NCBI GenBank assembly: GCA_030684555.1
Contig: JAUXVN010000109.1
Span: forward strand, 1 to 39,690
DNA from: Ignavibacteria bacterium
Lineage (GTDB): Bacteria; Bacteroidota; Ignavibacteria; Ignavibacteriales; Ignavibacteriaceae
Length of the DNA stretch: 39,690 nucleotides
Direction: 5' to 3'
Position numbers and translations under genes: made by a program. This document shows positions 34,553-39,491 of the stretch, piece by piece; the first letter of the stretch is position 1; each line of letters opens with the position of its first letter. The notes beneath the pieces are model-generated. The model did no database searches. It was given only the letters and a program-made list of their open reading frames with translations, and had not been told where the DNA came from.

Positions 34553-36277
34553 ATGATGACGAACATTGACGAAATACTCGAACTTCAAACTGATGAAGCA
34601 TGTTATTCTGTGCTTGATGTTGAAACAACCGGTTTGAGTCCAACTTCAAATAATATAATCGAAATCGGTATTATTAAAATTCAAAATAATGTAATAATTG
34701 ATCAATACAGTTCTTTAATAAATCCGGGACGTACAATTCCAATGTACATCACCACTATAACCGGATTAACTGATGATGATGTATATGATGCCCCATTTTT
34801 TGAAGATATCGCTTACGATATTTCAGAATTTCTTAGTGACTCTATCGTCACCGGACATAATCTTCAATTTGATATGAGTTTCATAAAGCGTGAATTAAGA
34901 TTAGCCGGTATCGAAAACTTCAAACCACTTCAACTATGTACTTTAAAAGTTGCAAGACGTTTGTTTCCTCAACTTAGGAGCAGATCTTTAGGAAATTTGG
35001 CATATCACCTAAACATTAAGCCTATAGATGCTCACCGTGCAACAGGCGATGCAGAAACTACTGCAAAAATATTGGAGCAAATGATTCAGCTTTTAAAAAA
35101 TGATTTTGATATTAACTCAGTAAAACAATTAATCGAGTTTCAATATCTGCCCGGGACAACTTTATCAAAACCAAAGTTATCGAAAAAAATGAATAATGAT
35201 TTAATTTCAGTGCCGGAAAATCCGGGCATCTATTATTTCTTAAATTCAAAATCGGAACCTATATACATTGGGAAAGCTAAATCTTTACGTGAAAGGATTA
35301 AATCATACTTAACCGATTCAACTCAGAAAAAAAGCAAAAAGATATTATTAAAAGCGAGCCGGATAAAAACAGAGACTACTAATTCCGAGTTGACCGCCCT
35401 CCTTGCTGAAGCTGAAATGATAAAAGCTCACAAACCAAAATTCAATACTCTTCTGAAAAAATATAGTTCAAAATATTACTTACGGTTTGATGTCACTAAA
35501 GATTTTCCAAAAGTATCGATCACACACAGTTTTTCATATGATGGAGATGATTATTTCGGATTATTTATCTCAAAACGAAAAGCACAAAAAATAGTTGATA
35601 TTATTGACCGAACCTTCTCCCTCCGCGAGTGTGATGAGCGAGAATTCAATCAAAAGAAAGGATGTTTTCTATCAGAAATTGGACGTTGCACAGCACCCTG
35701 TTTAAATGGGGATAAAGAAATTTATAATGATGAACTTTTTAAAGTATATGAATTATTATATGGTAAACATCAAACAGCGGTTAATCGTCTTCTAAAGAAA
35801 ATGAAAGACTTTTCAGATGAATTGAAATTTGAAAAAGCCGCCGAGATAAAAGAACTTCTTACTCTGGTTTTAAACCAAATTCATAAATCTTCGCTACTGC
35901 AAGAGCCTATTAACCGTGCCAGTGTATTAGTTGAAGTTACAGGTTACAATTATGTTAAAGATTACATTTTACTTCTCGAAGGAAAAGTTGTAATCAAAAA
36001 ATATTTAATGAACAGTGAAGATATTTTTGATAAATCCTTAGATGATTATTTTGAACAGGTAATAAATTATTCTCATGCCGCGACTGATGAAGACCTTGAA
36101 AAAATGAAAACGATTCTAAATTGGATAATAAATCATCGTAATCATGTAAGAATTTTTTATTTAAATGATTACTCATCTAAAGAAGCTTTATTTAAGGAAG
36201 TATCTCAGTTCAGAATTAACAAATCGGAATCCGAGATTTCCGAGTTTGACATCAAATCAATAATAAATAATATTTAG
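34553..36277 (+). CDS. DEDDh exonuclease fused to a UvrC-like GIY-YIG nuclease
   Basis: 574 residues. Residues 15-180 form a DnaQ-type 3'-5' exonuclease: Asp22 and Glu24 in LDVETTGL, Asp107 in HNLQFD, His161 and Asp166 in AHRATGDAE. Residues 218-310 form a GIY-YIG domain (PGIYYF, PIYIGKA, RERIKSYL). UvrC-like elements follow: cysteines 360, 371, 379 and 383 matching the UvrC Fe-S quartet, and a UVR-like helix (DELKFEKAAEIKELL). The UvrC RNase-H endonuclease and HhH domains are missing. The architecture resembles the polymerase-epsilon/UvrC fusions of Actinobacteria and the Cho nuclease. It probably acts in DNA repair. A second ATG one codon later is equally usable. Confidence 0.92.
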   Translation: MMTNIDEILELQTDEACYSVLDVETTGLSPTSNNIIEIGIIKIQNNVIIDQYSSLINPGRTIPMYITTITGLTDDDVYDAPFFEDIAYDISEFLSDSIVTGHNLQFDMSFIKRELRLAGIENFKPLQLCTLKVARRLFPQLRSRSLGNLAYHLNIKPIDAHRATGDAETTAKILEQMIQLLKNDFDINSVKQLIEFQYLPGTTLSKPKLSKKMNNDLISVPENPGIYYFLNSKSEPIYIGKAKSLRERIKSYLTDSTQKKSKKILLKASRIKTETTNSELTALLAEAEMIKAHKPKFNTLLKKYSSKYYLRFDVTKDFPKVSITHSFSYDGDDYFGLFISKRKAQKIVDIIDRTFSLRECDEREFNQKKGCFLSEIGRCTAPCLNGDKEIYNDELFKVYELLYGKHQTAVNRLLKKMKDFSDELKFEKAAEIKELLTLVLNQIHKSSLLQEPINRASVLVEVTGYNYVKDYILLLEGKVVIKKYLMNSEDIFDKSLDDYFEQVINYSHAATDEDLEKMKTILNWIINHRNHVRIFYLNDYSSKEALFKEVSQFRINKSESEISEFDIKSIINNI

Positions 36278-36366: not shown

Positions 36367-37554
36367 ATGAATACTCCCAAAAAAATTATAGCTTTTTCTG
36401 AGAGTAGTGACAGTCAATCACTTTACTTAGCTTTTGCTTCACAGCATGAATACATACTCCAGATTAAAAGTAAATCGACCTCAACTCTTTCTTCATTACT
36501 TGAGAACAGACCCGATTTAATTATAGTCGAGATACTTCAACCAATAATGAGTGAAATTGAGTTCGTGGATCAGATTCATAATTTATTAGGTGATGTACCA
36601 ATCGTAATTGTTTCATCCTACTTTTATGATACCAAGGAAATTGTTTTTGGAAATAAAATAAGAGATTTTATTATTCGTCCTTTCGAATTTGAACCATTCT
36701 CTATTCGAATTCAAAAAATTCTTGTTAAAGAGGAAAAAGTTGATCTTAAACCTCTTCCACAAAAAGATGTTCATTACGAAAACAAAAAACTTTCCATTTT
36801 ATTTGAAATTTCAAAAAGTTTAAACGCCAACAGAAATCTTGATGATCTTCTTGACCAGGTTGTACTCCTTTCAGCGGAAGCATTAAATGCGGAACGGGCA
36901 ACTCTGTTTCTTGTTGACAGACAGAATCAGCAGCTATGGTCAAGAAGCGGAATAGGACTTGAAACAAAAGAGATACGTATTCCTATTGATTCCGGAATTG
37001 CAGGTGAAGTGGCTGCATCGGGTGAAACTCAGATTATAGATGACCCTTATTCACACCCAAAATTTAACCGAAAAGTAGATTTGCAAACCGGTTTTGTAAC
37101 AAGAAATTTACTCTGCCTTCCTATGAAAAAACTTCATGGTGAAGTAATGGGAATTTTTCAAATTCTAAATAAAAAATCGGGGAATTTTAACGAAGAAGAT
37201 GCAATGTTTCTTAGTGCAATGGGAGCAAGCACCGGAATCGCTATCGAAAATGCACTGCTTCAAGAAGAACTTAAGAGACAACTCGGACAAATAAAAAATT
37301 CATACGAGGAATTATATATTGCTCAGAATGTGATATTGAAGGAATCTAAAATATCTACTACTTCAGAAATTTCAGGTTTCATAGTTTCTGAACTTCAAAA
37401 TAAAAATAATATACCAGCAATAATTTCAGGAATAAAGAGTTCGTATAAATTAGATGATAAGCTTACTGCAATGATTGATTCGATTGAAACAAGTTATTCC
37501 AATTTGGTTGAGACTCTTTTAGATTACATTCATAATTTTAGCAAAAACTCTTAA
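36367..37554 (+). CDS. Pseudo-receiver, GAF and degenerate DHp signalling protein
   Basis: 395 residues. Residues 5-120 have the receiver fold pattern, but the phospho-acceptor Asp is Glu55 (LIIVEILQP), the acidic pair is Ser11-Glu12, and the conserved Lys is Arg104 (IIRPF); Ser83/84 remains. Residues 155-300 form a GAF domain with SGIAGEVAASGE and a partial cyclic-nucleotide-type NK-x4-F-x3-D motif (268-278) whose last Glu is Ala. A coiled coil follows, then a DHp-like segment (328-356; SEISGFIVSELQN) with Ser341 where the phospho-His would be and no ATPase domain. It probably works as a ligand-sensing scaffold, not a kinase. ATG has AGAGG upstream. Confidence 0.85.
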   Translation: MNTPKKIIAFSESSDSQSLYLAFASQHEYILQIKSKSTSTLSSLLENRPDLIIVEILQPIMSEIEFVDQIHNLLGDVPIVIVSSYFYDTKEIVFGNKIRDFIIRPFEFEPFSIRIQKILVKEEKVDLKPLPQKDVHYENKKLSILFEISKSLNANRNLDDLLDQVVLLSAEALNAERATLFLVDRQNQQLWSRSGIGLETKEIRIPIDSGIAGEVAASGETQIIDDPYSHPKFNRKVDLQTGFVTRNLLCLPMKKLHGEVMGIFQILNKKSGNFNEEDAMFLSAMGASTGIAIENALLQEELKRQLGQIKNSYEELYIAQNVILKESKISTTSEISGFIVSELQNKNNIPAIISGIKSSYKLDDKLTAMIDSIETSYSNLVETLLDYIHNFSKNS

Positions 37555-37607: not shown

Positions 37608-39491
37608 ATGAAATCATTTCTCTCCTTCCGGTTTATTTTTAGCAGTCTGCTTCTAACTTTAATTCTTAACCTACAAATTAATTCGCAAACTTTTTTACCT
37701 ACCAATATTAAAAAAGGGTATGAAAAGCAGACGCGTGATTTAAGTGGAAAGCCCGGCCAAAAATATTGGCAGAATTATGCCGATTACAAAATCGATGTTG
37801 AGGTTATTCCCGAAAAGAAAAATATTTTGGGGAAGGCAGAAATTGTATACCACAACTTTAGTCCGGACTCATTAAATATTGTGGTAATGCGGCTATATCA
37901 AAACATCTTTAAAAAAGGTGTTCTAAGAAATTTTAATTTAAATGAAGTGGATATTCACGATGGAGTAATATTAAAAAATATTTCCGTGGATAATGAAGTT
38001 TATTCTGAAGATTCAGATAATCGATATTCCTTACAAGGCACCAATCTAATAATTAATCTTAAACAGAAAATCTCTCCTTCTGCAACTTGTAAAATTAATA
38101 TTGAATGGGAATTTCCATTACCAAAGGTTAGTCGTGTAAGAATGGGAGCGTATGACTCAACTTCATTTTTTGTTGCGTATTGGTATCCACAAATTGCTGT
38201 GTACGATGATATCAATGGATGGGATTTATTACCGTTCAACGGCGAACAAGAATTTTATAACGACTTTAACAATTATGAGGTTAATATAAAAGTACCGAAT
38301 AATATTGGTGTCTGGGCGACAGGTGAGATACAAAATATCAATGAATTACTCAAACCAGATATTCTTAAACGTTACAACGAAGCCCGTTTATCGGAAGCGG
38401 TAGTTAAGATTTTTAGTGAAGATGATTATAAATCAGGGAGTCCATATAATACAGAAAATGTATACAACATTTGGAAATTCGTAACAAAGTCAGTCCCCGA
38501 TTTTGCATTTGCTACAAGCGATCATTATTACTGGGATGCTTGCAGATATAATTCTAAAAATTCAGAATTAAATGGCGTTTTTATTAGTGCCGTATATAAT
38601 AGGAATTCAAAAGATTTTTATGAAGTTGCAGCAATTTCTAAAGAAGCTATAGAATTTTTTGAAAATAAATCTCCTGCTTATCCTTTCCCCTATCCAACAA
38701 TGACAGTGTACAACGGAGATGGTGGAATGGAATTTCCTATGATGGTTAACGATGGCACTACAACCTCACGACCATCAACAGTTGGTTTAACCTCTCACGA
38801 GATCGCACACACTTATTTCCCTTTTATGATGGGAACAAATGAAAAATTATATGCGTGGATGGATGAATCATGGGCAGTAATGCTTCCGTTTGACTTTCAA
38901 CATGAAAATGGTGGGAAACAATTAGCGAATAATGTTTCAGCTTATAACGATTTTGCCGGACATGAATCGGAAGTTCCGCCGATTGTCCCTTCTTATCAGC
39001 TAAGAGGAAGAGCTTATAGAATGACGGCTTATACGCGTCCAGCCCTTTCTTACTATTTCCTAAAAGATTATTTAGGCGAACAAAATTTTTATGAGTGTCT
39101 TCATGATTTTATGAATACATGGAAAGGGAAACATCCAAGTCCATACGATTTCTTTTATACTTTTAATCGTGTCTCAAATGAAGACTTAACCTGGTTTTGG
39201 GAGCCATGGTTCTTTGATTACGGTTATCCCGATTTAGCAATAAACAAAGTTGAGAAAAAAGATAAATCAGTATCAGTTGTCATTTCAAAAAAAGGAAATA
39301 TTCCGGTACCGATTAAATTGAAAATTACTACTTCGAAAGAAGAAATAATTATCTATAAGACAGTTGAAGTTTGGAAAGATAAAAACGACTACAAAATAAA
39401 TCTTGAATTAGATTCAGAATTAGTAAAAATTGAATTAGGCGATGAAACTATTCCGGATGTAGATGTCAACGGTCATATAATTCCCCAGTAA
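37608..39491 (+). CDS. M1-family metallopeptidase (aminopeptidase N-like), secreted
   Basis: 627 residues. The signal peptide ends near residue 27 (QINSQ), predicting export. The N-terminal beta domain is followed by a gluzincin domain with substrate-anchoring GGMEF (372-376), zinc motif HEIAH (397-401) and the third ligand Glu420 exactly 18 residues later (HExxH-x18-E). A catalytic Tyr probably lies further on in LSYYF. The C-terminal about 90 residues form a beta domain. It lacks the long ARM-repeat domain of PepN. The last codons (ATT CCC CAG TAA) coincide with the 10-bp core of the adjacent tandem repeat. It lies 53 bp after the GAF gene. Confidence 0.92.
   Translation: MKSFLSFRFIFSSLLLTLILNLQINSQTFLPTNIKKGYEKQTRDLSGKPGQKYWQNYADYKIDVEVIPEKKNILGKAEIVYHNFSPDSLNIVVMRLYQNIFKKGVLRNFNLNEVDIHDGVILKNISVDNEVYSEDSDNRYSLQGTNLIINLKQKISPSATCKINIEWEFPLPKVSRVRMGAYDSTSFFVAYWYPQIAVYDDINGWDLLPFNGEQEFYNDFNNYEVNIKVPNNIGVWATGEIQNINELLKPDILKRYNEARLSEAVVKIFSEDDYKSGSPYNTENVYNIWKFVTKSVPDFAFATSDHYYWDACRYNSKNSELNGVFISAVYNRNSKDFYEVAAISKEAIEFFENKSPAYPFPYPTMTVYNGDGGMEFPMMVNDGTTTSRPSTVGLTSHEIAHTYFPFMMGTNEKLYAWMDESWAVMLPFDFQHENGGKQLANNVSAYNDFAGHESEVPPIVPSYQLRGRAYRMTAYTRPALSYYFLKDYLGEQNFYECLHDFMNTWKGKHPSPYDFFYTFNRVSNEDLTWFWEPWFFDYGYPDLAINKVEKKDKSVSVVISKKGNIPVPIKLKITTSKEEIIIYKTVEVWKDKNDYKINLELDSELVKIELGDETIPDVDVNGHIIPQ

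Follow-up and report, generated by a model that had tools for sequence, protein, structure and literature searches.

This locus raises the question of what a protein assembled from two-component folds does once the residues that carry phosphate have been lost. The window, that is, the whole stretch of 39,690 nucleotides that was analysed, comes from an Ignavibacteriaceae genome of 4.34 Mb and contains an open reading frame (36367-37554, +) with an ATG start that encodes 395 amino acids. An earlier note, made from the DNA letters, had described the product as a receiver with Glu55 for the phospho-accepting Asp, Arg104 for Lys and a broken acidic pair, followed by a GAF domain and by a DHp-like helix pair with Ser341 for His and no kinase domain behind it. 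The three substitutions and all of these parts are found where that note placed them, and the ORF list and the orthologues together describe the whole gene as pseudo-receiver, GAF domain, helical stem and DHp remnant. What the note said of lost phosphotransfer was also borne out: the residues for it have been lost in both halves of a protein that is under selection. This anatomy, together with the origin described below, is in our own judgement highly probable.

Orthologues were detected in 26 of the 164 Ignavibacteriales genomes, representing 17 of the 68 genera and three families, and full-length matches were confined to Ignavibacteriales in a sample covering the whole phylum. The closest named orthologue, from an Ignavibacteriaceae MAG, is 74% identical. 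The residue counts below were taken on 25 aligned orthologues; L082 and L153 belong to the same genome, and alignment A1 refers to the 16 orthologues that were aligned first. Mean pairwise identity among the orthologues is 59% in the GAF domain, 45% in the stem (residues 299-336), 40% in the receiver and 17% in residues 337-395, and the corresponding values for the closest pair (the window protein and L068) are 86, 92, 71, and 40%. In the GAF domain of that pair, pN is 0.10 and pS 0.73; pN and pS are quoted alone because dS was saturated in the closest usable pairs. An AlphaFold2 model built from 18 sequences (mean pLDDT 81.7) begins with a receiver fold that runs as far as residue 120, continues with the GAF domain and a single long helix (276-345), and closes with a helical hairpin that reaches the C-terminus. 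The earlier statement that the folds are kept thus stands for the receiver, the GAF domain and the stem, but applies only loosely to the DHp body after residue 336. Conservation, as judged from sequence, is strongest in the GAF pocket and also extends over the pseudo-receiver and the helical stem.

The pseudo-receiver (residues 1-120; 36367..36726, +) is weakly recognized when the window protein is compared alone with the Pfam receiver family (20.7 bits, below the cut-off of 30.2; E 0.00048). Response_reg was matched by all 16 orthologues of A1 in Pfam (best 2.9e-9), and the first 121 residues of the model superimpose on the receiver 2qxy with a Z-score of 16.7 and 2.1 Å over 118 residues. The receiver fold and a replaced phospho-Asp, two features of an aspartate-less receiver, are both present. 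At the phospho-Asp site (Glu55; 36529..36531, +), Glu is present in 24 of the 25 orthologues and Asp in one (L082), which answers the question in the earlier note of whether Glu55 is fixed. On a tree computed without columns 55 and 104, a single change at the L082 tip accounts for position 55, and the sister of L082 has Glu; the lone Asp is thus read from the tree as one late change, and the family ancestor already had Glu at this site. The L082 orthologue (L082:6634-7854) is the only one with Asp at the phospho-site and it also has Lys104; phosphorylation may have been regained in it. A sigma-70 factor gene lies just downstream of it (L082:8083-8943).

The other receiver positions have had different fates. 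The acidic pair, here Ser11-Glu12 (36397..36402, +), is only half broken, for position 11 is Ser, Thr or Pro, whereas position 12 is Asp or Glu in every orthologue (25/25). Arg104 (36676..36678, +) was correctly reported for the window protein but does not typify the family: the receiver Lys site has Lys in 17 orthologues, Asn in five, Arg in two and Tyr in one, and Arg104 is therefore a change of the window's genus, the only one that has it. Pro59, Phe86, Thr89, Phe94, Gly95, and Pro105 are invariant in all 25 sequences, as is Ser83 (36613..36615, +), the Thr/Ser switch residue of receivers, and position 101 is always aromatic (Phe in 22, Tyr in three). It was reported that the coupling Ser/Thr and aromatic residues are both kept in 47% of pseudo-receivers, i.e., in less than half (PMC12632262); their retention in all orthologues favours a receiver that is still able to reach the active shape. 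Among Asp-less receivers, no replacement of the Asp is more frequent than Glu, which can act as a phosphate mimic in many of these proteins, though not in all (PMC4395418; PMC12632262). Receivers with Glu are not always active by means of it, and ChxR stayed active after its Glu had been replaced (PMC4395418).

The GAF domain (residues 140-298; 36784..37260, +) was identified by Pfam (1.1e-15), and its nearest solved relatives are the cyclic-nucleotide GAFs of CyaB2 and PDE2/5/10. In a structure search the GAF domain of the model matched those of PDE5A, CyaB2 and an HD-GYP protein. CyaB2 contacts cAMP through Arg291, Thr293, Ile308, Asp356, and Asn359 (PMC4411481), and counting along the alignment places Arg177, Thr179, Ser194, Asp238, and Thr241 of the window protein opposite these residues. 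Three of the five contacts, Arg177 and Thr179 (36895..36903, +) and Asp238 (37078..37080, +), are the same as in CyaB2 and invariant in the 25 orthologues; the position of Asn359 is Thr or Ser, and that of Ile308 is mostly Ser, Thr or Val. In the NKFDE motif (37168..37203, +), Asn268, Lys269, Phe274, and Asp278 are present in all 25 orthologues and the final Glu in 13, with Ala279 in the window protein. The window genome encodes two class III cyclase domains. The likeliest candidate for the ligand is a cyclic nucleotide, and the earlier suggestion that the GAF domain is a ligand sensor is upheld to the extent that the pocket appears to fit such a molecule.

The stem (37261..37374, +), in which Tyr313 and Gln320 are invariant, leads into the former DHp (residues 337-395; 37375..37551, +), a two-helix hairpin of which the length has been kept and the sequence has drifted. 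Pfam gave no HisKA match for the window protein nor, among the families listed and even at E 10, for the orthologues. Descent was seen through intact GAF-kinases: BLASTP aligned the window protein with L086 (42% identity over 254 residues, E 1e-66) and with L087 (39% over 249 residues, E 1e-60), and the alignments cover window residues 140-393 with one gap, reaching the end of the HisKA domain of these kinases. HisKA is present in both, HATPase_c in L087, and L086 ends at a contig edge. When the DHp part was compared alone, profile against profile, it aligned in register with a score of 25.8 (probability 69%), while 30 column shuffles gave at most 13.2 and the reversed profile 12.5; the shorter CNB-GAF-kinases showed no relation (probability 3%), so that the signal is particular to the long-stem kinase clade. 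BLASTP and the profile score thus agree on a descent shared with histidine kinases, and the tail descends, by these alignments, from a kinase DHp, in keeping with the likeness to a DHp that the earlier note had pointed out. The phospho-accepting His is missing: Ser341 (37387..37389, +) faces the His of HEIKN (alignment GFIVSELQN / ASGINHEIKN) in the intact sister kinases. The earlier note had asked whether Ser341 is fixed, and it is not: the orthologues have nine residue types at this position (S, E, D, H, G, T, N, Y, and Q), or a gap. The DHp has therefore drifted as a remnant and has not been preserved as a docking surface. Pfam detected no HATPase (CA) domain, and no kinase domain follows, since the stop codon lies 53 bp before the next gene.

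In a tree of GAF plus stem, the window family (23 rows) forms one clade (support 100/95), the sister of which is a clade of eight active long-stem GAF-kinases (99/91); both together have support of 100/100 and are split from the CNB-GAF-kinases with full support. The sister kinases (L087 and L180-L186) are without a receiver. Judging by these alignments, the C-terminal part of the protein descends from a GAF-histidine kinase that lost its ATP-binding domain and its phospho-His, and the simplest history is that the receiver was gained and the ATPase domain and the His were lost in the ancestor of the window family. The active kinase gene (L087:2363-5259, and L180-L186) is in most loci directly followed by one for a GAF-SpoIIE phosphatase, and at L087 also by a STAS protein; it is possibly coupled to a partner-switching set. 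The anti-sigma pathway proposed earlier as a possible setting for the window protein thus finds at most an indirect parallel in the sister kinases, but these neighbours have no counterpart beside the window family. Another group, the CNB-GAF-histidine kinases (L241:426-2645 in the window's own genome, G000:C79, and L018, L019, L021-L028, and L030), has a replaced phospho-His in a motif of the 'xDIKKP' type, by Gln, by Ser in L026 and by Thr in the window's genome. They keep an intact HATPase domain (Pfam 1.9e-19 for the copy of the window genome) and form one well-supported clade, so the loss of His looks old and fixed.

The gene neighbourhood adds some hints on function. The gene lies about 90 bp downstream of an exonuclease gene (34553..36277, +) and 53 bp upstream of an M1-type peptidase gene (37608..39491, +), all on the forward strand. 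The upstream product, of 574 amino acids, joins a DEDD exonuclease to a UvrC-like GIY-YIG half and scores just under the cut-off of the NCBIfam DEDD-exonuclease families (best 448 bits; cut-off 495). Five of the Ignavibacteriaceae relatives examined (L068, L069, L074, L075, and L076) have the exonuclease gene immediately before the pseudo-receiver gene, and three of these (L068, L069, and L076) have the peptidase gene immediately after it; in other relatives an S9 peptidase takes the upstream place. In Melioribacteraceae, the pseudo-receiver-GAF gene is the last of an operon after genes for a HisA-like protein, a single-domain cyclic-nucleotide-binding (CNB) protein, Usp and an IF-2B-like protein. 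This operon was read in four loci (L085:5419-9194, L082:4052-7854, L079, and L083), and a spacing of 2 to 3 kb between the CNB and pseudo-receiver genes implies it in three more. The linkage suggests nucleotide or stress signalling. The window's family does not share this arrangement; in the window genome, the HisA-like, CNB and Usp genes lie together on another contig (L240:3163-5020), without the IF-2B-like and pseudo-receiver-GAF genes. Co-occurrence with the small CNB protein was considered as a functional clue and found uninformative, as this protein is present in 148 of the 164 genomes.

Based on these observations, the protein may be a dimeric, probably cyclic-nucleotide-sensing, non-enzymatic switch with an 'on-like' pseudo-receiver that docks on partners, a mechanism to which, taken as a whole, we give even chances. 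Dimerization would run through the long helical stem that follows the GAF domain, and when this domain binds a small molecule, a cyclic nucleotide being the likeliest, its helices would shift. Glu55, with Ser83 and Lys/Arg104, would hold the pseudo-receiver in or near the 'phosphorylated' shape and offer an unusual, near-invariant surface of loop and helix 4, SxxFxxTxxxxFG, around residues 83-105, to a partner protein; this docking surface is a guess from sequence, and AlphaFold2 predicts a short helix 4 (residues 90-93). Ligand binding would alter the availability of the surface, the output being a protein-protein contact without a phosphate step, and the DHp tail would now serve mainly as a dimer clamp. 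Counted against this mechanism are the two of five CyaB2 contacts that differ, the NKFDE Glu that is absent in the window protein, the Asp of L082 with Lys104, the activity that ChxR kept without its Glu, and the lack of the Melioribacteraceae operon in the window's family.

Other explanations have to be weighed against it. The joint loss of several catalytic features might mean that a kinase is decaying on its way out, which is barely credible: the frame is open, mean identity in receiver and GAF is 40-60% across three families, the pocket residues are invariant and pN is far below pS in the GAF domain of the closest pair. Conservation in the alignment ruled out a pseudogene, and the losses are not those of one decaying copy, for they are shared by the orthologues, and the intact homologues form a sister clade. 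A view that we consider doubtful, yet the least improbable of those set against the switch, is that the tail is functionally no DHp and that residues 337-395 are a free-running leftover on a plain pseudo-receiver-GAF dimer. The mean identity of 17%, the nine residue types at position 341, the weak fold match (best Foldseek E 0.15, Z 8.3) and an orthologue (L081) cut short within the tail speak for it. The tail length, however, is 55-68 amino acids in 24 of the 25 orthologues, which places their ends close to that of DHp helix 2, and pN is still below pS in this segment. The whole-model structure search was filled by GAF domains, and the tail was for this reason modelled separately; it gave a confident hairpin (mean pLDDT 88) with top fold matches that are mostly DHps (ERS1, GacS, and CpxA). 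The matches fit what the sequences show and are too weak to stand alone.

It is unlikely, somewhat more so than a leftover tail, that the protein is a decoy or regulator in which the pseudo-receiver, in its 'phosphorylated' shape, fills the docking face of an active two-component partner, with the GAF domain merely gating it. There are other kinases whose own pseudo-receiver binds a small molecule and controls the enzyme, as in ShkA, where the molecule is c-di-GMP (PMC7010744), and possible partners are plentiful, with 93 receiver and 64 HisKA matches in the window genome. On the other side, the DHp face is not conserved, and no kinase is a conserved neighbour of the pseudo-receiver gene in any locus read. 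No evidence was found for the earlier idea of docking on a particular kinase. At the threshold used, none of the genomes with the pseudo-receiver gene had a member of the closest active GAF-kinase clade; within the window's family this clade occurs, among the sampled genomes, only in G456, which has no match to the window gene. The ligand-gated switch is the reading that we prefer. A far bolder extension, which we regard as a long shot, is that two separate Ignavibacteriales GAF-kinase lineages, the receiver-GAF-DHp proteins and the His-less CNB-GAF-kinases, abandoned His-Asp phosphotransfer and jointly form a branch of cyclic-nucleotide signalling in which two-component folds serve only for docking under the control of a ligand.

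According to a 2025 review, the switching of bacterial pseudo-receivers is mostly unknown (PMC12632262). In this family a single small soluble protein unites the Glu with its partners in the pocket and with a candidate ligand domain, and comparison is possible with an active sister clade as well as with one Glu-to-Asp change that arose naturally; in such a conserved single-protein case, it is easy to test whether the Glu is a built-in phosphate mimic. The significance is modest and mainly for specialists, and this family alone leaves the general picture unchanged.

Several known systems resemble parts of this protein. With the aspartate-less receivers (ChxR, plant PRRs, and the PsR of Rim15) it shares the receiver fold, Glu at the Asp site, which marks the commonest kind of pseudo-receiver, the Ser/Thr and aromatic coupling residues and a proposed function free of phosphotransfer. 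It differs from them in its output, a GAF domain with a kinase-derived stem, and in keeping, as far as spacing shows, the second acidic residue whereas most of them keep the first. The cyclic-nucleotide GAFs (CyaB2, PDE2/5/10, and PDE6) have the same NKFD residues and Arg/Thr/Asp contacts, and CyaB2 is about 35% identical in this domain, but the window protein has a single GAF, two changed contact residues and no cyclase or phosphodiesterase attached. The GAF-histidine kinases of Ignavibacteria (L087 and L180-L186) are 39-42% identical through GAF, stem and DHp, and unlike the window protein they have the phospho-His and an ATPase domain, lack a receiver and mostly lie beside a GAF-SpoIIE phosphatase. 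Phytochrome HKRDs and subfamily-2 ethylene receptors are degenerate kinases that act as scaffolds after the loss of kinase chemistry; in them, too, a GAF or receiver is joined to a DHp-type helical dimer, although at least remnants of the ATPase domain are kept. The hybrid response regulator LvrB is similar by fold match only. No published account of a pseudo-receiver-GAF-DHp-remnant family was found in the literature searched. None of the three components, pseudo-receivers, cNMP-type GAFs and kinases reduced to their helices, is new by itself; the novelty lies in finding them combined, in a form fixed across much of an order and with an active sister clade alongside.
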